Assembly (NCBI GenBank): GCA_947627875.1
Contig: CANQXS010000010.1
Span: 1-64,000, forward strand
Direction: 5' to 3'
Source: an uncultured Clostridia bacterium
Lineage (GTDB): Bacteria > Bacillota > Clostridia > Oscillospirales > Ruminococcaceae
DNA: 64,000 nt
Shown here: piece by piece, positions 35,563 to 64,000 of the stretch
How positions within the stretch are numbered: the first letter of the stretch is position 1
Layout of the letters: the number at the start of each line of letters is the position of its first letter
Notes under the pieces: model-generated
What the model saw: the letters and a program-made list of their open reading frames with translations, nothing else
Databases searched by the model: none
Told to the model about the DNA's origin: nothing
Translations under genes and position numbers: made by a program

Positions 35563-35603
35563 TCATTATTTGACATCATCGTAATTGTATAAACCACTTC
35601 TTG

Positions 35604-39818: not shown

Positions 39819-41498
39819 TTAGTTCTGCCTTAGTCTGTAGGTGATGGTGCGGGTCTTCTTTATATCCGAGCTGCCGTCGTGGTGGGTAGCGGTGGTGTAG
39901 CGCTTAGAGGTTATGCCCGCAAGAATGTTCTCCTGGAAGCCCACTCTGTTGTAATCCGCAACGACTCTCTCGAACAGCTCGTTGGTGCTGAGCTGAATTC
40001 TGACGTATACGAAGTCCGAGGTAGTGTCTTTAACGGCTTCGCGTGCCTTGGCGTCGAGGATTCCTGCAACTTCGCTGTAGCTTGTCGCATAGCAGTTGTT
40101 GAGCTTATACCAGTTGAGGTCGTCAGAGGTCGCGGAGGGCATTGTGTAATACTTTGACAGGTCGGTGACCGACGCCCTCGTGTTCCTCATATAATCGTCG
40201 TTGACGCAGAGGAAGTCGTAGCAGACGTAGTTGTAGTCGAAGATGTTGCTGAAATCGGGGTCGCCCCAGGTGGTGTCAACGTTATACCACTTGCCGTTTA
40301 TTTTGACCTTTACCCAAGCGTGGTTCTGATCGGTGCCGTAGCCGGTCGCGTAAACAACGTCGAAGCCCGCCTTCGAGAGCAGATAGAAGGTTCCCTCTGC
40401 ATAGCCGAGGCAGTTGGCGCCGCCCGCCACGATCGAGCCGTAGGACGAAGACTCATAAGTTCCGCCGTAGGTGTTGTTGGTGCAGAGCCACTCATAGATG
40501 TATTTGACCTTGTTGTAATCCGAGTAACCGCTTATCCTGCTTACGACCTTGTTTGCGGCGCTTTCGAGGTCGCTGACCATTCTCTGCGCGGTGTTGTAGT
40601 CGTCGGTGAAGTAGGTGAGGTTCATAGTTGTGCCGGAAACGGAGGATACGCCCTTGAAGTAGCAGTAGCCCGTGCCGACCATCTGAACGATATTTGAGGC
40701 GATTTCAACGGCTTCTTCGTGGCTGAGGTATTCGCCGACCGAAACGCTCGGAGCCATAACCTCAACTGCGCCCGCAATTTTATTGAGAGCGTCCTGATAT
40801 CTCGAATCGGTGAAGAGGTTATACATATATCTTACGCCGTTTATATCTACCCAGTCTCCGACCACGGGCTCTTCGATATCCGGGTTTTCGGTTACGGTCC
40901 CGGGATTTTCTATCGGTTCGTCGTCAACGACTTCTCCTGCGGAGGAAGCGGGAGTCTCGCTTACAGCGGGCTTGGCGGTTGTGACCGCGGCGGCGGGAGC
41001 CTTATCGGTGATATAGATGTTGCTTACATAGCCGGTTTCGCCGTCTACCGAGACCTGATACCAGCCGGTCGAAGCGCGCCCCGTAACGGTAACTGCTTCG
41101 CCTTCGTCGAGGGTGGCGATGCGCTCAAAGTCGGTCGAGGGACCGCTTCTGACGTTGAGGGAGATCGTCGCATACATCTTCGCCGACATCGGCTCAACCG
41201 TGAAGGCGTTGGGGTCTGCCTTGGTCGTCGTGGGCGCGGGAGTGGTCTCGGGCGCGGGGGTAGTGACGGGCTCGGCGGTAGTTACCGGCGGCTCAGCCGT
41301 TGTGACCGGCGCGGGAGTGGTCTCGGGCGGAAGAGTGTCGGGCGCGGGAGTGGTCACATCTTCAACGGTTATCGAGGGATCGATGGTTCCCGTGGGGGGA
41401 GTATCGGGGTGCTCGTCGGGGACCTGTCCGCAGGCGGCGAAGACGCTCAGCGTCATCATCAGCGCGACTAAGAACGCCGAAATTCTTTTCAAGTTCAT
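39819..41498 (-). CDS. Lipoprotein with SH3-type and transglutaminase-like domains
   Basis: Start at 41496-41498 (MNLKRISAFLVALMMTLSVF) has GGAGG upstream and gives a lipoprotein signal with lipobox FAAC, so the protein is outside and membrane-bound. A Thr/Pro linker (about 30-105) is followed by a bacterial SH3 domain (SLNVRSGPSTDFERIATLDEG...GYVSNIYI, about 115-170). A transglutaminase-like cysteine protease core lies in the second half: GGANCLGYAEGTFYLLSKAG with Cys, QNHAWVKVKINGKWYNVD with His, and TTWGDPD with Asp. SH3b domains often bind peptidoglycan, so a wall peptide substrate is plausible. Confidence 0.85.
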   Translation of the reverse strand: MNLKRISAFLVALMMTLSVFAACGQVPDEHPDTPPTGTIDPSITVEDVTTPAPDTLPPETTPAPVTTAEPPVTTAEPVTTPAPETTPAPTTTKADPNAFTVEPMSAKMYATISLNVRSGPSTDFERIATLDEGEAVTVTGRASTGWYQVSVDGETGYVSNIYITDKAPAAAVTTAKPAVSETPASSAGEVVDDEPIENPGTVTENPDIEEPVVGDWVDINGVRYMYNLFTDSRYQDALNKIAGAVEVMAPSVSVGEYLSHEEAVEIASNIVQMVGTGYCYFKGVSSVSGTTMNLTYFTDDYNTAQRMVSDLESAANKVVSRISGYSDYNKVKYIYEWLCTNNTYGGTYESSSYGSIVAGGANCLGYAEGTFYLLSKAGFDVVYATGYGTDQNHAWVKVKINGKWYNVDTTWGDPDFSNIFDYNYVCYDFLCVNDDYMRNTRASVTDLSKYYTMPSATSDDLNWYKLNNCYATSYSEVAGILDAKAREAVKDTTSDFVYVRIQLSTNELFERVVADYNRVGFQENILAGITSKRYTTATHHDGSSDIKKTRTITYRLRQN

Positions 41499-41578
41499 AA
41501 ATAAAACCTCCGTATCTTTTGTCTGTATATGCGCGCGGCGGCGAATCTCATTCCGCAGTACCGCGGTTAGTCCTAAAA

Positions 41579-42874
41579 TCACTGCTTATGCTTGAGGGTG
41601 ATTATTATAGTGAGCGGACCTTCGCCGTCTTTATGGGCGGAGTAGCGCTCCCAGGAGCCGTCGTTGAAATCCGAGCCGTATTTTTCGTTGGCTTCCTTCA
41701 TAAGCGTCTGGATCTCGCCGTCGTGAGCCTTCATAAACAGGTTCTCGTTGACCTCGGTATAAACGGCTTCGTCCGACATTCTGAGGTAGATATAATTTGT
41801 GCCGTTCTTGGCGCAGAGCTCGAGCTGCTTCTCGGTGGCGGCGTAGGCCTCTTCATAGGTGGTGCAGTAGTAGCCCATAACGTTGTGATAGCTGAGCTCC
41901 ATCGAATCCGCGGTGGGGATAACATAGTAATAGGGCTTGCCGTCGCGCTGTTCGTAATATGCGTTGTCGAACTTCATCGCGTGGTCCTGCAAAATAACCT
42001 CGTCAGAGATCATAAAGTAGTCGTAGCAGATATAGTTCGGGTCGGTCTTGCCGGTCGGGTCAGACCATGTCGGGTCTACGATATACCATTTTCCGTCGTC
42101 GAGCTTGACGTAGTTCCATTTATGGGTGTAGTTGATATTATCGCCTCTGCCTATAGTGTAGCAGGTCTCGAAGCCCGCCCTCGAGAGCAGAAGATGCATA
42201 GCGTCGGCATAGCCCTGGCAGGTCGCCCAGCCCTCGACGAGGGCTCCGTAAGCAGTGAAGGGGAGCTTGCCCTCTTCGCCGTAGTTGCAGTGTAAAACAA
42301 GGTAGTCGTGGAGATATTTTATCTGCTCCCATTGGGTGCCGTCCGGCATTCCCGCGACTATTTCGTCGAGCCTCGCGTTGAGGTCGGCGGTGAGCTTCTG
42401 ACCGTCCTCGGTGTAGTTCACGACCTCGTGGTTGTAGGGGATATATATCGTCCTCACCATTCCGTCGTCGTCGGCGGGAGCGGTGAACGAGGTCCCGATA
42501 TAGGTGTAGTCCATAGTGCAGTGGTAGGCAAAGTCGAGGAAGCGGTCTTTGTCCTCGGCAGGGAAGCCCACGCTGAGGGTCGCCGCAAGGTCGAGATTTT
42601 TGACCGCATTCAGAAATTCCGCAAGGTTCATCTTTGTGTCGTCGTCGAGCTGGTTCCAGATATACCAAAGACCGTTATCGTCGATGACCGAGGTATCTAT
42701 GGAGTCGAGCGGGTTTGCTTCGACGGGTTCGGTAACGCTGCCGTCGGTAACGGAGGGCTCGGTAACGGTATCTGAGCCGGTCTGAGAAGGCGTGTCGTCG
42801 ATTTTATCTCCGCAGCCCGCGAGCATAACGGCTGCAAGCAGAATTGCGAGGATCAGTGCTGTGATTCTTTTCAT
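41579..42874 (-). CDS. Transglutaminase-like lipoprotein
   Basis: The 431-residue product starts MKRITALILAILLAAVMLAG with lipobox LAGC. A short Thr/Ser/Pro linker precedes a folded domain with the transglutaminase-like triad: WATCQGYADAMHLLLSRAG (Cys), INYTHKWNYVKLDDGKWY (His) and VDPTWSDPTG (Asp). It lacks the SH3 domain of its neighbour. The two genes are 80 bp apart in the same direction behind one promoter, and their similar cores suggest duplication and divergence. The substrate is unknown, probably cell-wall or surface protein. Confidence 0.85.
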   Translation of the reverse strand: MKRITALILAILLAAVMLAGCGDKIDDTPSQTGSDTVTEPSVTDGSVTEPVEANPLDSIDTSVIDDNGLWYIWNQLDDDTKMNLAEFLNAVKNLDLAATLSVGFPAEDKDRFLDFAYHCTMDYTYIGTSFTAPADDDGMVRTIYIPYNHEVVNYTEDGQKLTADLNARLDEIVAGMPDGTQWEQIKYLHDYLVLHCNYGEEGKLPFTAYGALVEGWATCQGYADAMHLLLSRAGFETCYTIGRGDNINYTHKWNYVKLDDGKWYIVDPTWSDPTGKTDPNYICYDYFMISDEVILQDHAMKFDNAYYEQRDGKPYYYVIPTADSMELSYHNVMGYYCTTYEEAYAATEKQLELCAKNGTNYIYLRMSDEAVYTEVNENLFMKAHDGEIQTLMKEANEKYGSDFNDGSWERYSAHKDGEGPLTIIITLKHKQ

Positions 42875-46447: not shown

Positions 46448-47158
46448 TTAAAGCCCGTATATCCGCTTCATTTCGCGGGAATATTCCTCTCCCTCCATAA
46501 CAAGGAGGGGGCTTTCTATCTTCATAAATCCTGTTCCGCCGAGCCTTCCTTCAAGGAGAATGAGCCAAGCGGGGGAATCGGCGTTTTTGTGAACGGTCCG
46601 AAGGCGCTTCGGCTCGATCCCGCAGCTTCTCATCGCAGAAATACAGTCGGCAAGCCGCTCGGGTCGGTTGCAGATGCAAAGCCTCCCGCCGAATTTAAGG
46701 CTCCGCTTTGCCGCCTCGCATACATCCCGTATCCCGCACTCGATTTCGTGGCGGGCGAGAGCCTGCGCGGAATCGGCGCTTTTCGCACCCGTTCCGCCGC
46801 GTTTATAGGGCGGGTTGCAGGTGATGAGGTCGAGCGCACGCTCGCTCCGCCATTCCCTGAGGTCTGCGCAGACGGGTTTAAGCCTGTCCGTTCCCGAAAG
46901 TTCCTTCGACATCACCGCGAGGTCGTAAGCCTTTTTTTGGATCTCAACCGCCGTTATCTCGGCGGGAAGGTGATTTTTAAGCATAAGCAGCGCGACGATT
47001 CCGTTGCCTGAGCAGAGGTCGCAGCAAAAGTCCTTATGCCTCGGCGCGGCGAAGTCGGCAAGCAGAAAGGCGTCGGTCCCGAAGCGGTGCTCCTTTGAGA
47101 TCACTACCTTGTAGCCGCTCCCGAGGTCCTCGACCGAGAGGTCGTCATATTGAGGCAT
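46448..47158 (-). CDS. TrmN6/YfiC-type tRNA adenine-N6 methyltransferase
   Basis: Enzymes of this type methylate A37 of tRNA1(Val). The ATG at 47156-47158 (MPQYDDLSVEDLGSGYKVVI) has GAGGAGG inside the 3' end of dusB. The Rossmann core shows FCCDLCSGNGIVALLMLKNH (about 44-63), ITAVEIQKKAYDLA, and the adenine-N6 motif NPPY in DLITCNPPYKRGG (about 116-128). Length 236. It overlaps dusB by 14 bp. The exact tRNA target is inferred from the family. Confidence 0.88.
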   Translation of the reverse strand: MPQYDDLSVEDLGSGYKVVISKEHRFGTDAFLLADFAAPRHKDFCCDLCSGNGIVALLMLKNHLPAEITAVEIQKKAYDLAVMSKELSGTDRLKPVCADLREWRSERALDLITCNPPYKRGGTGAKSADSAQALARHEIECGIRDVCEAAKRSLKFGGRLCICNRPERLADCISAMRSCGIEPKRLRTVHKNADSPAWLILLEGRLGGTGFMKIESPLLVMEGEEYSREMKRIYGL

Positions 47159-48122
47159 TTTCGAGCACCTCCTCGGCAAGCCTTTTTATGTCGTCAAGGG
47201 TGTTGAGCGAGCCCGACATATTGCGGTATTTCGCCGCCCCGCGAACCCCTTTCAGGTACCACGCGACGTTTTTTCTCGCCTCGCGCACTCCCTGTGCCTC
47301 GCCCTTGTATTTTACTATCCTCTCGGCGTGCTCAATCATCACTCTCAGGCGCTCCTCAAGAGGCGGTTCGGGCAGCATTTCGCCCGATTCGAGATACCTC
47401 TTTATCTGCTCAAACACCCAAGGTCTGCCGTTTGAGGCGCGAGCCAGCGAAACGAGGTCGCAGCCGGTTTCGGAATACATTTTAGCGGCATCCTTGCCGT
47501 CTAAAATGTCCCCGTTTCCGATAACCGGTATCTTTACGGCATTCTTCACCGCTTTTATGACCGACCAATCCGACCTTCCGCTGTACATCTGAGCCCTTGT
47601 CCTCGGGTGGACGGCGAGCGCCGAGGCTCCCGCTTGCTCCATCATCACGCCGAAAGGCACCGCGTTGATGTTATTCTCGTCCCAGCCCGCGCGGAATTTC
47701 ACCGTTACGGGGCATTCCGCCCTCGATACCGCCGCTTTTACGAGCTCTGCCGCGAGCTCGGGCGTTTTCATAAGCGCGCTACCTCCCCCGGGATTTACCA
47801 CCTTCGCGACGGGGCAGCCCATATTTATGTCGATGATATCGGGCTTGAAGCGGTTGACGATCTCAACGGCTTTTGCCATATATTCCGGCTCCTCGCCGAA
47901 GAGCTGGACGGCATACGGGCGCTCGGAATCATAGACCTCGCAGAGCTCGAGCGAGCCTGCTCCGCCGTAGCAAAGCCCCTTTGCCGAGACCATTTCGCTG
48001 CAAAGGTAACTCGCGCCGTATTCGCGGCATATCTCGCGGTAGGCTCGGTCGGCTACAGAAGCCATCGGACTTAAGGCGCATGTCCGTTCTATTTTCACGT
48101 TTCCGATAGTTATGAAGTCCAT
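47145..48122 (-). CDS. dusB: tRNA-dihydrouridine synthase B
   Basis: Reduces specific uridines of tRNA to dihydrouridine with FMN and NADPH. The 325-residue protein begins MDFITIGNVKIERTCALSPM and shows the catalytic region IIDINMGCPVAKVVNPGGGS with the active cysteine (about 100), CPVTVKFRAGWDENNINAV, ALAVHPRTRAQMYSG and VIGNGDILDGKDA. The first 62 bp of the gene and its ribosome site occur two more times upstream (48256 and 48451). The gene itself is complete. Confidence 0.96.
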   Translation of the reverse strand: MDFITIGNVKIERTCALSPMASVADRAYREICREYGASYLCSEMVSAKGLCYGGAGSLELCEVYDSERPYAVQLFGEEPEYMAKAVEIVNRFKPDIIDINMGCPVAKVVNPGGGSALMKTPELAAELVKAAVSRAECPVTVKFRAGWDENNINAVPFGVMMEQAGASALAVHPRTRAQMYSGRSDWSVIKAVKNAVKIPVIGNGDILDGKDAAKMYSETGCDLVSLARASNGRPWVFEQIKRYLESGEMLPEPPLEERLRVMIEHAERIVKYKGEAQGVREARKNVAWYLKGVRGAAKYRNMSGSLNTLDDIKRLAEEVLENASI

Positions 48123-48152
48123 TATATCCTCACAAAAAGATATGGCGGCGGT

Positions 48153-48317
48153 TTATATCAAAGTCATGGTCGTCGGCGAGGAGGCAGCAGCCTCCGAGAC
48201 GAAGACGGACGCGGCGGCAGTCTTGAAGTCGGCGGGAAACGCTTGACGCCGCGTTGCCATCGGGCTTAAGGCGCATGTCCGTTCTATTTTTACATTTCCT
48301 ATCGTTATGAAATTCAT
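48153..48317 (-). pseudogene. Truncated dusB-start copy 2, 54 codons
   Basis: From the ATG at 48315-48317 the frame reads MNFITIGNVKIERTCALSPM-A, the same as DusB residues 1-21 apart from Asp2 to Asn. It then departs into TRRQAFPADFKTAAASVFVS and ends at 48153 with MTLI-stop. The ribosome site GTGAGGATATA is retained, so it could be translated as a 54-residue peptide. The foreign tail is identical in layout to copy 3. Confidence 0.75.
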
Positions 48318-48347
48318 TATATCCTCACAAAAAGAGATGGCGGCGGT

Positions 48348-48512
48348 TTATATCAAAGTCGGGGTCGTCGGCGAGGAGGCGGCAGCCTCCGAGACGAAGA
48401 CGGACGCGGCGGCAGTCTTGAAGTCGGCGGGAAACGCTTGACGCCGCGTTGCCATCGGGCTTAAAGTGCAAGTCTTTTCTATTTTCACGTTTCCGATAGT
48501 TATGAAGTTCAT
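48348..48512 (-). pseudogene. Truncated dusB-start copy 3, 54 codons
   Basis: The ATG at 48510-48512 opens MNFITIGNVKIEKTCTLSPM-A, DusB-like with Lys/Thr changes, followed by the same foreign tail as copy 2 with one change near the end (PTLI instead of MTLI). The leader GTGAGGATATA is kept. Base changes in the DusB-like portion show that the copies have been separate for some time or came from different alleles. Confidence 0.75.
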
Positions 48513-48574
48513 TATATCCTCACAAAATGCGGGCTTTACCGGCGCGGCGCCCCACTGCCTGCGAGCGCCGCCCG

Positions 48575-48637
48575 CCCCCACAGCCGCGCCCCAAGGCGCG
48601 CGGCTGTGGGGGTGCACGGCGCCGAAGGCGCCGTGCA
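48575..48637. repeat. GC-rich double hairpin upstream of the dusB-start array
   Basis: CCCCCACAGCCG (48575-48586) pairs with CGGCTGTGGGGG (48601-48612), and TGCACGGCGCC (48613-48623) pairs with GGCGCCGTGCA (48627-48637) around GAA. Both stems are perfect. Similar in style to the cluster at 46349-46429. Confidence 0.7.
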
Positions 48638-48734
48638 GGCGGCGCTTCCGGCAAAAGCTGCCTCTTTCGCAGAATTTTCCTTAAATCTCAGCGCTTCCGC
48701 CGCGCCTCGGGGAGCAAAAGCCGTATGCAAAAAC

Positions 48735-48763
48735 ATTATACCACAGTTTTTTCGGTTTGTGTA
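48735..48763 (-). promoter_or_regulatory. Probable promoter of the dusB gene run
   Basis: TATAAT on the minus strand (48735-48740) has a weak -35 box TACACA (48758-48763) at 17 bp. The leader would then include the GC-rich hairpins and both truncated dusB starts before reaching dusB, so ribosomes would meet decoy start sites first. Confidence 0.5.
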
Positions 48764-48804
48764 GTCTTTTGACAAAATTTAATGAATTTTGTAGAGTCTT
48801 ATAA

Positions 48805-48838
48805 TAAATTGCAAGAGGTTTCGACCTCTTGCAATTTA
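48805..48838. terminator. Perfect bidirectional hairpin at the left border of the phage genes
   Basis: TAAATTGCAAGAGGT (48805-48819) and ACCTCTTGCAATTTA (48824-48838) pair perfectly around TTCG and are followed by TTTTTAT on the plus strand. It separates host and phage transcription. The rest of the 48528-48872 gap has only the features listed above. Confidence 0.8.
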
Positions 48839-48872
48839 TTTTTATCCATATTTTTGAAAGGAGACTCTATAA

Positions 48873-49124
48873 ATGAACGCTCGCTATCTAAATTTTAGCG
48901 ACAGAAAAAAGCTTGAACAAATGTATCTCGACGGTAAAAAGGTTCCTGAGATCGCGGCCGAATTAAAAGTTCATGAATCCACGGTTTACAGAGAGCTTGA
49001 CCGAGGTGCGACCGGATCACTCGACAACAACGGCAGAATCGGCTACAGCTCTGAGCTCGGTCAAATTGCTTTGCAGAGCAGGCTGAAACACCGCCGACTC
49101 AACCTCAGAAAAGCAGATGATTAA
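48873..49124 (+). CDS. Phage helix-turn-helix regulator, 83 residues
   Basis: AAAGGAG lies 9 bases before the ATG at 48873. The 83-residue product contains an HTH like those of IS30-type or resolvase proteins: FSDRKKLEQMYLDGKKVPEI then AAELKVHESTVYRELDRGA (about 8-46). A short basic tail follows. It is the first gene of the phage block and may act as a small regulator. No repressor/Cro pair or integrase is seen here, so lysogeny genes are probably at the other end of the prophage, outside the window. Confidence 0.75.
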   Translation: MNARYLNFSDRKKLEQMYLDGKKVPEIAAELKVHESTVYRELDRGATGSLDNNGRIGYSSELGQIALQSRLKHRRLNLRKADD

Positions 49125-53145: not shown

Positions 53146-54063
53146 ATGATCAGAGAAAAGCAAACGCGTTCCGGTCCGCTCTTTGAGGTCGATTTTTACC
53201 CGGTATTTTCCGACGGTCGCCGAATGCCGGTGCGTGCCCCGAAGACAAAGCCCTCGACTGAGGAGCAGCAAAGATATAACCGCACTGTTGCGGAGAAGAA
53301 GCTGATCCGGCTCGTCAATGCAAATTTTGACAGCTCTGACTACTGGCTCCACCCGACATATGCGCCGCAGTATGCGCCGCAGGACGAGGAGAAAGCCCGC
53401 CGGGACGTCTCTAACTTCTTTCGCAGGGTGAGAACGAAGCGCGCTGCTGCTCTGAAAGAATGCCGAAAGGAGCTTGCAGCGTTGGAAAAAGCTTATGCGG
53501 CGCCGAACGGATATCTGCTTTCGGGAATCGAAAAGCTCAAAGCAAAGATTGACAAGCTGTCACAGCCGTTAAGATACATATACGTCATGGAGTGTGTGAC
53601 CTATAAACGGGGGAAGCTCGCCGGTCAGAAGAACTTTCACTTCCATATCTTTCTCACCGGTGGGCTCGACCGCGGGGTAATCGAAGATATGTGGCCCTAC
53701 GGTATGAGGACAAACTGCGACCGTTTTCAGCCCGAGCGCTTCGGACCCGAGGCTGCGGCGCTGTATATGTCGAAGGACCCGCAGGGCTCAAAGCGGTTCG
53801 TCTGCTCGCGCAGCATCGTCCGTCCGAAGGAAAGACGGCGCGACGGCAGAATATCTCACGCCGGCGTTAAGCGTATGGCGACAGCGCGCCCGGATGACGC
53901 GAAGTATTGGGAAAAACGCTATAAGGGCTATCGCTTTCTGCGCTGCTATTCAAGATTCAACAGCTTCAACGGTCAGTGGTATGTGTCGGTCGTCATGTAC
54001 CGCGCAGAGGGCGATCCGCCGAAATGGGAAGCGGATGACTGGATCACGGAGGACTATACCTAA
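53146..54063 (+). CDS. HUH-type replication initiator, ORF2/G2P-like
   Basis: Rolling-circle initiators nick one strand at the origin. The 305-residue product carries the metal-binding HUH-type motif NFHFHIFLTGG (His at 165 and 167) and, about 40 residues on, ALYMSKDPQGSKRF with the candidate catalytic tyrosine (about 207), the order of filamentous-phage G2P-like proteins. A long helix bundle (about 85-140) precedes it. It lies 8 bp from the DUF6017-like gene. No DNA primase or helicase gene is seen nearby. Confidence 0.75.
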   Translation: MIREKQTRSGPLFEVDFYPVFSDGRRMPVRAPKTKPSTEEQQRYNRTVAEKKLIRLVNANFDSSDYWLHPTYAPQYAPQDEEKARRDVSNFFRRVRTKRAAALKECRKELAALEKAYAAPNGYLLSGIEKLKAKIDKLSQPLRYIYVMECVTYKRGKLAGQKNFHFHIFLTGGLDRGVIEDMWPYGMRTNCDRFQPERFGPEAAALYMSKDPQGSKRFVCSRSIVRPKERRRDGRISHAGVKRMATARPDDAKYWEKRYKGYRFLRCYSRFNSFNGQWYVSVVMYRAEGDPPKWEADDWITEDYT

Positions 54064-62870: not shown

Positions 62871-64000
62871 ATGGCTACCAAGATTCAGGGAATCACCATA
62901 GAAATAGGCGGCGACACTTCGCCTCTTGCGCGAGCGCTGTCCTCGCTCAACAAGTCTATCAATTCAACGCAGTCCGAGCTTAAGGCAGTCGATAAGGCGC
63001 TGAAGCTCAACCCCGACAGCGTCGTGCTTCTGACTCAGAAGCAAAAGCTCTTGGAAGATCAGATTAAAAACACTTCCGGCAAGCTCGACAGCTTGAAGCA
63101 GATCGAGCAGGAGCTCCAAAAGCGCCGCGAGGCGGACCCCTCAAACGAAAATCTCGAAAAGCAGCTCCGCGCGGTGCAAAGGGAACTGCTCAACACCGAG
63201 GCGGGGCTGCAAGGGCTTGAAAACGCATACGCCGAAACAGGCAGCCAAGCCGATAATCTTTCGGCGGGGAGCGAGCGGGCGGCGGAAAGCACCAAGAAAT
63301 CCGCGACGGAAGCCAACGCCGCGATTGAAATCTGGAACCGCTTCGCGAACGCCGTCGGCAACGCCGCAAAAAAGCTGCTAAGCTTCATCACCGACGCGGC
63401 GGAAAAGGCGGATGAGCTCAACACTCTTTCGGCGAAAACAGGTATTGCCACCGAAGAACTTCAAAAGCTTACATACGCCTCGGGGTTCGTTGACGTCAGC
63501 GTCGAGACGATGACGGGCTCGATATCGAAGCTCATCAACAATATGGACAACGCCAAAAAAGGCACCGGCACGGCTGCCGAAGCTTTTCAAAAGCTTCATA
63601 TAAGCGTCACAGACGCCCCCGGAGAGCTTAAAGATGGCAATGAGGTATTTCTTGAAGTGATCGACGGGCTCGGGAAGATATCGAACGAGACCGAACGCGA
63701 CGCCATAGCTATGGACCTCTTCGGCAAGTCTGCCCGCGAGCTCAATCCGCTTATTGCAGAAGGCTCCACACGTCTGAAGGAACTCGGCGTGGAAGCTGAA
63801 AATGCCGGAATAATTATGTCACAGGACACTCTCGACGGCGCCGCCAACTTCAACGATACTCTGGACAGGCTTCGCCTCACTCTTGAGGGAGTCGCGACGG
63901 CAGCCGGCGCAGAGGTCGCGGACAGCCTTACGAGGCTCCTTGAAGCAGTCACACCGATAATACTCGCAATAGCTAAGCTTATCTCGCTTATTGCAGGGAT
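62871..64000 (+). CDS. Tail tape measure protein, 5' part only
   Basis: GGAGGCGGGGAA precedes the ATG at 62871. The visible 376 residues begin MATKIQGITIEIGGDTSPLA, then RALSSLNKSINSTQSELKAV and a long heptad-rich coiled coil (about 20-140), followed by ELNTLSAKTGIATEELQKLT, a typical tape-measure segment. This protein sets tail length and is ejected with DNA. The gene runs off the window end, so its length is unknown. Confidence 0.9.
   Translation, partial: MATKIQGITIEIGGDTSPLARALSSLNKSINSTQSELKAVDKALKLNPDSVVLLTQKQKLLEDQIKNTSGKLDSLKQIEQELQKRREADPSNENLEKQLRAVQRELLNTEAGLQGLENAYAETGSQADNLSAGSERAAESTKKSATEANAAIEIWNRFANAVGNAAKKLLSFITDAAEKADELNTLSAKTGIATEELQKLTYASGFVDVSVETMTGSISKLINNMDNAKKGTGTAAEAFQKLHISVTDAPGELKDGNEVFLEVIDGLGKISNETERDAIAMDLFGKSARELNPLIAEGSTRLKELGVEAENAGIIMSQDTLDGAANFNDTLDRLRLTLEGVATAAGAEVADSLTRLLEAVTPIILAIAKLISLIAG

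Follow-up and report, generated by a model that had tools for sequence, protein, structure and literature searches.

The dusB gene in a 64,000-nucleotide stretch of DNA (hereafter the window) from an uncultured Clostridia bacterium (contig CANQXS010000010.1, positions 1–64,000) was preceded by a tandem array of copies of its own translation start. A 77-bp repeat (D), containing the ribosome site and the first dusB coding bases, occurred three times, and the copies were separated by two 118-bp spacers (L). A shorter form of the array was found in two sister species, the spacer was highly conserved between the species, and the array was distinct from a prophage inserted nearby. We give about an even chance to the reading of the array as a lineage-specific cassette in the dusB 5′ leader, whose units act as upstream open reading frames (ORFs) setting dusB output. 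The genome of the window (G000) was compared with those of the two sister species (G010 and G004), with one genome per species. The dusB genes were located on contigs C10, C6, and C11 of G000, G010, and G004, respectively, and the G000 contig was read past the window end at 64,000.

Structure of the dusB start array

The array and its leader were composed of the following features.

47145–48122, minus strand: dusB, tRNA-dihydrouridine synthase, 325 residues (ORF; Pfam Dus, PF01207, E = 1.6e-88)
48061–48137, minus strand: D1, with the working dusB ribosome site GTGAGG (48133–48128), the ATG (48122–48120), and the first 62 coding bases (repeat comparison)
48138–48255, minus strand: L1, inner spacer, 118 nt, 114/118 identical to L2 and 112/118 to G010 (alignment)
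48256–48332, minus strand: D2, middle decoy start (repeat comparison)
48153–48317, minus strand: decoy ORF running from D2 through L1, 54 residues, stop 30 nt before the dusB ATG
48333–48450, minus strand: L2, outer spacer, 118 nt, 116/118 identical to G010 and 105/118 to G004 (alignment)
48451–48527, minus strand: D3, outer decoy start, positional counterpart of the outer copies in G010 and G004 (repeat comparison)
48348–48512, minus strand: decoy ORF running from D3 through L2, 54 residues, stop 30 nt before the D2 ATG
48539–48715, no strand assigned: GC-rich palindromic stretch in the leader, common to G000, G010, and G004 (sequence comparison)
48735–48763, minus strand: likely dusB promoter, TACACA-17-TATAAT, with TG before the second hexamer (promoter-like pattern)

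Read along the minus strand towards dusB, the parts were arranged as promoter, GC-rich palindromic stretch, D3, L2, D2, L1, D1, and the rest of dusB, and the N-terminus of dusB came from the inner D copy. Each D copy contained 15 nt with the Shine-Dalgarno-like GTGAGG, followed by 62 coding nucleotides from the ATG. An initial annotation of this DNA had described dusB starts at 48061, 48256, and 48451 with a 195-bp step, which was confirmed by the coordinates and by Tandem Repeats Finder (period 195, 2.4 copies, score 822; at most 62 for the other five rows of the window). It had also described copies of the leader and the first 21 codons leading into identical tails with early stops. The repeat was real and both decoy frames stopped after 54 residues, but the copies were not exact (70/77 for D1/D2 and D1/D3 and 67/77 for D2/D3, corresponding to 87–91%), their coding part was 20 codons and two bases, and the tails were identical at 114 of 118 positions.

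Tandem repeats can be miscounted in assemblies, and the third D copy is known from the G000 assembly alone. An assembly artefact of the draft genome is nevertheless very improbable as the origin of the array, since the copies differed from each other by several bases each and a D-L-D arrangement was present in three separate assemblies.

Conservation of the spacer

The L spacer was conserved beyond neutral expectation, as measured against 4-fold degenerate sites and against other noncoding segments. Compared with G010, L2 was identical at 116 of 118 positions, against 109/145 for the 4-fold sites of dusB (Fisher p = 2e-8) and 92/145 for those of polA, taken from its first 300 codons (p = 7e-14). 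Compared with G004, L2 was identical at 105/118, against 71/137 in dusB and 73/142 in polA (p = 6.5e-11 and 4e-11, respectively). L1 was less conserved, with 112/118 in the comparison with G010 (p = 7e-6 against the dusB 4-fold sites). Among alignable noncoding 118-bp segments outside the array, none of 907 reached the identity of L2 in G010 (mean 0.789), and 17 of 1180, all near 35.5 kb, reached it in G004 (mean 0.781). When coding segments were included, the numbers were 136 of 32,959 and 2613 of 26,442, respectively. This baseline was composed of BLAST-aligned DNA only, with coding DNA taken as greedily chosen ORFs of at least 100 residues.

L was the best-conserved noncoding stretch in 118-bp segments in the comparison with G010, but not with G004. 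The identities to G010 and G004 were 0.905 and 0.905 for the promoter part, 0.958 and 0.944 for the 72 nt before polA, and 0.898 and 0.791 for the GC-rich stretch. The conservation of L matched that of the promoter part, in agreement with a functional element.

Distribution and origin of the array

G010 and G004 each had a D-L-D arrangement between dusB and polA, with steps of 195 and 196 bp, respectively. The genus was scanned for a second dusB start at 30 loci, using 110 to 752 bases upstream of dusB at each; the genus genome G007 was not among these loci, and polA was not within the stretch examined for seven of them, including G000. A second copy of the own dusB start was found at three loci (55/62 bases in G000, 58/62 in G010, and 59/62 in G004), and none was found at the other 27, where the best match was 29/62. 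By BLAST, L was present in the same three of 31 genus genomes, G007 included, and absent from the other 28. In the dusB protein tree of 30 rows, the three species formed one clade (support 100/99), within which G000 grouped with G010 (95/39). The copy number was three D and two L in G000, and two D and one L in both G010 and G004.

Since D-L-D was present in sisters without a prophage at this locus and the three species formed a single clade, the cassette appears to have originated before the species parted, with one unit added later in the G000 lineage. Most simply, D-L-D would have arisen once in the common ancestor of the three species and would be older than the prophage, and the third D and second L would have been gained by unequal crossing-over.

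The codons of the D copies were also compared. D3 resembled the outer copy of G010 (ACT ATC; AAG ACT), and D2 resembled the inner copy of G010 at ACG ATA. D1 was a mosaic, which was like D3 at this place and at codons 5–9, and like D2 further on (CGG ACA TGC GCC) and at codons 13–16. The two D copies of G004 shared codons (AAA, GCG CTG) that were found in neither G000 nor G010. These patterns are read as marks left by gene conversion or unequal crossing-over among the D copies, which could explain the third copy.

The same patterns, together with the difference between two and three copies among species, are expected if slippage or a template switch doubled the dusB start with filler DNA (L) as a harmless tandem duplication and recombination kept the D copies alike. 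We consider this neutral origin possible but less probable than the upstream ORF cassette. L was far more alike between species than the 4-fold sites and nearly all other noncoding segments, and, with just one copy of L in G010 and in G004, its likeness between species cannot be maintained by conversion within a genome. In addition, the decoys retained their open frames and ribosome sites.

A model for the dusB leader

The pattern TACACA-17-TATAAT or a near variant was found upstream of dusB in 13 of the 30 genus loci. The distance from the −10 hexamer to the ATG was 30–54 nt in seven of these 13, and 494, 558, and 612 nt in G010, G004, and G000, respectively. From the position of the pattern and these lengths, the decoys and L are probably within the dusB mRNA. 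The suggestion of the initial annotation that the decoys keep a ribosome site and lie upstream of dusB on the likely transcript therefore held. The Shine-Dalgarno sequence, the ATG, and the open frame were intact in all four decoys (two in G000 and one each in G010 and G004). The decoy stop was located 30 nt before the next ATG in G010 and in both units of G000, and 7 nt before it in G004, where it was inside the next ribosome site. Judged by sequence, each decoy is a short ORF that has its own ribosome site and precedes the gene on what is likely one transcript.

In the proposed model, dusB would be transcribed from the promoter at 48763–48735 with a leader of ~600 nt containing the decoys and L. 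Ribosomes would start at the decoy D copies, translate the short ORFs through L, and stop 7–30 nt before the next start, and the conserved L RNA would then decide whether they pass to the real dusB start. In the plainest mechanism, translation of the short ORF would unfold or expose L and hand the ribosomes to the next start. The D-L units would be short upstream ORFs with an RNA element tuning the translation of dusB. The comparison itself establishes the make-up of the array, its distribution and conservation, and its separateness from the prophage, whereas transcription through the array, translation of the decoys, and the effect on dusB are predictions of this model.

Short upstream ORFs with translational coupling are described in bacteria, for example upstream of iraD, in the part of PMC5574718 consulted here. 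The overlap of the G004 decoy stop with the next ribosome site resembles these ORFs as that part presents them. Unlike them, the upstream starts of the array are tandem copies of the gene's own start around a conserved 118-nt spacer. A brief literature search found no leaders made of duplicated starts of the same gene, which is weak evidence of absence. The array may even represent a new type of cis-regulatory leader, in which decoys duplicated from the own initiation region flank a conserved RNA element and the count of decoy units (two in G000, one in each sister) serves as an evolvable dial on dusB expression, with DusB or its tRNA substrate as possible readers; we think this wider reading rather unlikely. 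If the decoys act, a bacterium can build upstream ORF control before a tRNA-modification gene by duplicating the start of that gene, and the copy number serves as the dial. Beyond the dusB leaders of this clade, the effect would be small and local.

Several observations weigh against a function of the D-L units. In the comparison with G004, L2 (0.89) was not the most conserved part of the dusB–polA region, as it was below the promoter part (0.905) and the 72 nt before polA (0.944). The best noncoding 118-bp segment in that comparison (at 48410, 0.898) was located mostly in D3 and was equalled by one at 35584. The conservation of L, seen among the three genomes compared, could come from recent exchange between species, and the D copies are kept alike in part by gene conversion. 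Long leaders were also found in species without the array, at three of the 13 loci that had the pattern (200, 333, and 400 nt). Nothing was found at the Rfam gathering score that would make L a known RNA; the nine matches at E ≤ 1 in 47900–48900 were all below that score, and none was within L1 or L2. L was rejected as a conserved peptide because a 1-nt insertion in G004 shifts the frame and the stop. Covariation did not support a structure with the four L sequences, where none of the 29 predicted pairs changed on both sides (term +0.38). The folding z-scores of L in the dusB sense were −1.5, −0.9, −0.8, and −3.4, and the opposite strand was equally good in the two copies tried (−1.9 and −3.2). 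No terminator-like site was found.

By eye, G004 paired two positions of the 50–88 hairpin that were mismatched in the other copies. A plus-strand ORF within L (MAAVYIKV...) shared its first residues between copies but not its end, also by eye. No promoter-like site was found on the minus strand within L.

Searches for relatives of the spacer

BLAST found no copy of L outside the array in its own genome. A covariance model (R1), with 118 of the first-look candidates scored per genome, gave only weak matches beyond the known copies, the best with 24.4 bits and E = 0.003 in G002. The exact 20-base core of L was found in two records of the genome_contigs collection, apparently those of G010 and G004, and in none of viral_contigs. 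Searches of 50,697 phage and 72,556 plasmid records gave no match to the whole array. L was rejected as a repeated or mobile element, as none of these searches gave a convincing relative. A derivation of L from the upstream leader by divergence was likewise rejected, since local alignment was no better than with shuffled sequences (781, 486, and 603 of 1000 shuffles reached the score). D-L-D is therefore not an evident tandem copy of the leader plus the start.

Comparison with dus-targeting islands

Genomic islands that target dus genes enter the 5′ end of dusA or, more rarely, that of dusB (PMC4482086), and supply a new dus 5′ end (PMC4482086, PMC8409611), according to the parts of these reports used here. 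In the latter, the supplied N-terminus was 61% identical to the native one. The array shares with the dusA-associated integrase (DAI) islands of PMC4482086, as far as the part cited describes them, a second dus 5′ end upstream of the gene. If an island of this type had entered dusB near codon 21, supplied a new 5′ end, and later been deleted to 118 bp, it would have left the order native 5′ end, scar, island-supplied 5′ end, and rest of dusB, which is the order D-L-D-rest, and the lack of similarity between L and the upstream leader beyond shuffles agrees with such a scar.

That an older dus-targeting element left D-L-D behind in this way is nonetheless improbable. Tyrosine integrase matches (PF00589) were found 12 times in G000 and three times each in G010 and G004, but none was on a dusB contig. 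L contained no recognised gene or family, and a decaying scar is not expected to be strongly conserved. No island with cargo was found between left and right attachment sites (attL and attR), as just 118–119 nt separated the D copies in the three genomes. Published repeats range from 19 to 28 bp, against 77 bp in the array. The D copies within a genome were 87–95% alike in DNA, in contrast to the 61% identity of supplied and native N-termini in the cited part of PMC8409611. Compared with the DAI islands in the part of PMC4482086 consulted, the array had no tyrosine integrase on its contig, no island, 77-bp repeats instead of 19–28 bp attachment sites, and a conserved spacer. Because the dusB contigs lacked an integrase and L was conserved, the array was not classed with the DAI islands. 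As to the semiconserved 21-bp attachment repeats of DAI islands within the dus 5′ coding region, the picture was mixed, since the direct repeats of the array cover the dusB 5′ end but are 77 bp long.

Separation of the array from the neighbouring prophage

In G010 and G004, the dusB leader joined the divergent polA gene directly, without a prophage at this locus. In G000, the dusB–polA junction was interrupted by ~28 kb; the leader matched G010 to 48789, and the match was resumed at 77031. The ends of the insert shared a 17-bp direct repeat, CAAAATTTAATGAATTT, which was present in a single copy at the prophage-free junction of the sisters.

48773–48789, no strand assigned: left copy of the 17-bp direct repeat of the prophage (junction comparison); the right copy is at contig bases 77036–77052, outside the window

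The left repeat started 9 bases upstream of the −35 hexamer of the likely dusB promoter, and the right repeat was located upstream of polA (ATG at 77125). From these positions, the likely dusB promoter is intact. A 349-residue protein just inside the right end contained the HTH_38 and rve domains and matched the phage transposase family phrog_4646 (1.1e-129). This DDE transposase is likely the integration enzyme of the prophage, and its domain pair is one that we take to be of the IS30 type. Other genes of the insert matched terminase, portal, head, glycosyl hydrolase 25, and reverse transcriptase, which indicates that the rest of the insert is a prophage. The Lagaffe prophage of Faecalibacterium (48.3 kb) is bounded by direct repeats and encodes an IS30-family transposase and a reverse transcriptase, as given in the part of PMC5883640 consulted. 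The neighbouring prophage is similar to it in kind, with a DDE transposase as the likely integration enzyme, a reverse-transcriptase gene, and direct repeats at the ends, although it is smaller (~28 kb).

The initial annotation had placed the array at the phage-side edge of dusB and likened it to the copies made by integrases of the dusA-associated type, as if elements had come and gone repeatedly or a small element copied the start. The proximity of the prophage, which begins 246 bp beyond the array, and the variation of copy number between species agree with an origin from this prophage or from repeated visits of such elements. We consider that origin exceedingly unlikely. The edge position was incorrect, as the array end (48527) and the start of the prophage repeat (48773) were separated by 245 bp of host DNA containing the GC-rich palindromic stretch and the likely dusB promoter. 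The prophage ended in its own 17-bp repeats at 48773 and, beyond 64,000, at 77036, and not in D copies. The enzyme at the right end was a DDE transposase and not a tyrosine integrase, and neither the G000 dusB contig nor those of the sisters had a PF00589 match. Phage and plasmid records contained no match to the array, and viral contigs contained no L core. Comparison of the unit with related genomes, which had been suggested as a check, undercut the prophage origin, because G010 and G004 have D-L-D without a prophage at the locus. The copy number did vary, with three D copies in G000 and two in each sister. An attachment origin from the prophage was rejected on the prophage-free junctions and the separate 17-bp repeats. 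The array is not a scar of the adjacent prophage, which most simply entered on its own, between the divergent promoters of dusB and polA. As a caution, a gene start duplicated next to a prophage may look like an attachment scar, but the sisters have it without a prophage at the locus.

Other features of the prophage and the window

Relatives of the transposase, with 48–62% identity, were encoded at 13 IMG/VR loci. At the left end of the prophage, an 83-residue HTH_38 protein (48873–49124) was similar to the N-terminal part of phrog_4646 (positions 4–82) and is a candidate regulator. A phage protein similar to replication initiators (53146–54063) matched phrog_3584 (E = 6.9e-65), with a weak, below-cut-off match to REP_ORF2-G2P and a weak match to phrog_3419, which is named rolling circle initiation. 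A candidate diversity-generating retroelement was located at contig positions 70493–72263 (L002:10494–12264), with a reverse transcriptase (RVT_1, phrog_1423). Two similar stretches of the candidate (58/70 bases) were 265 bp apart, one of them at the 3′ end of a 559-residue phage protein. Only 12 of 30 mismatches over 100 bases were on an A of the presumed template, which is suggestive at most.

The GC-rich palindromic stretch at 48539–48715 may be an insertion element of palindromic type. Its ends resembled, by eye, those of a stretch (GAGGCGCGGCGG ... CGCCGCGCCG) in the dusB leader (L011) of G009, a species without the array. GC-rich tandem repeats of short period (17–21 bp) were clustered at 41222–41355, within a minus-strand ORF (39819–41582).
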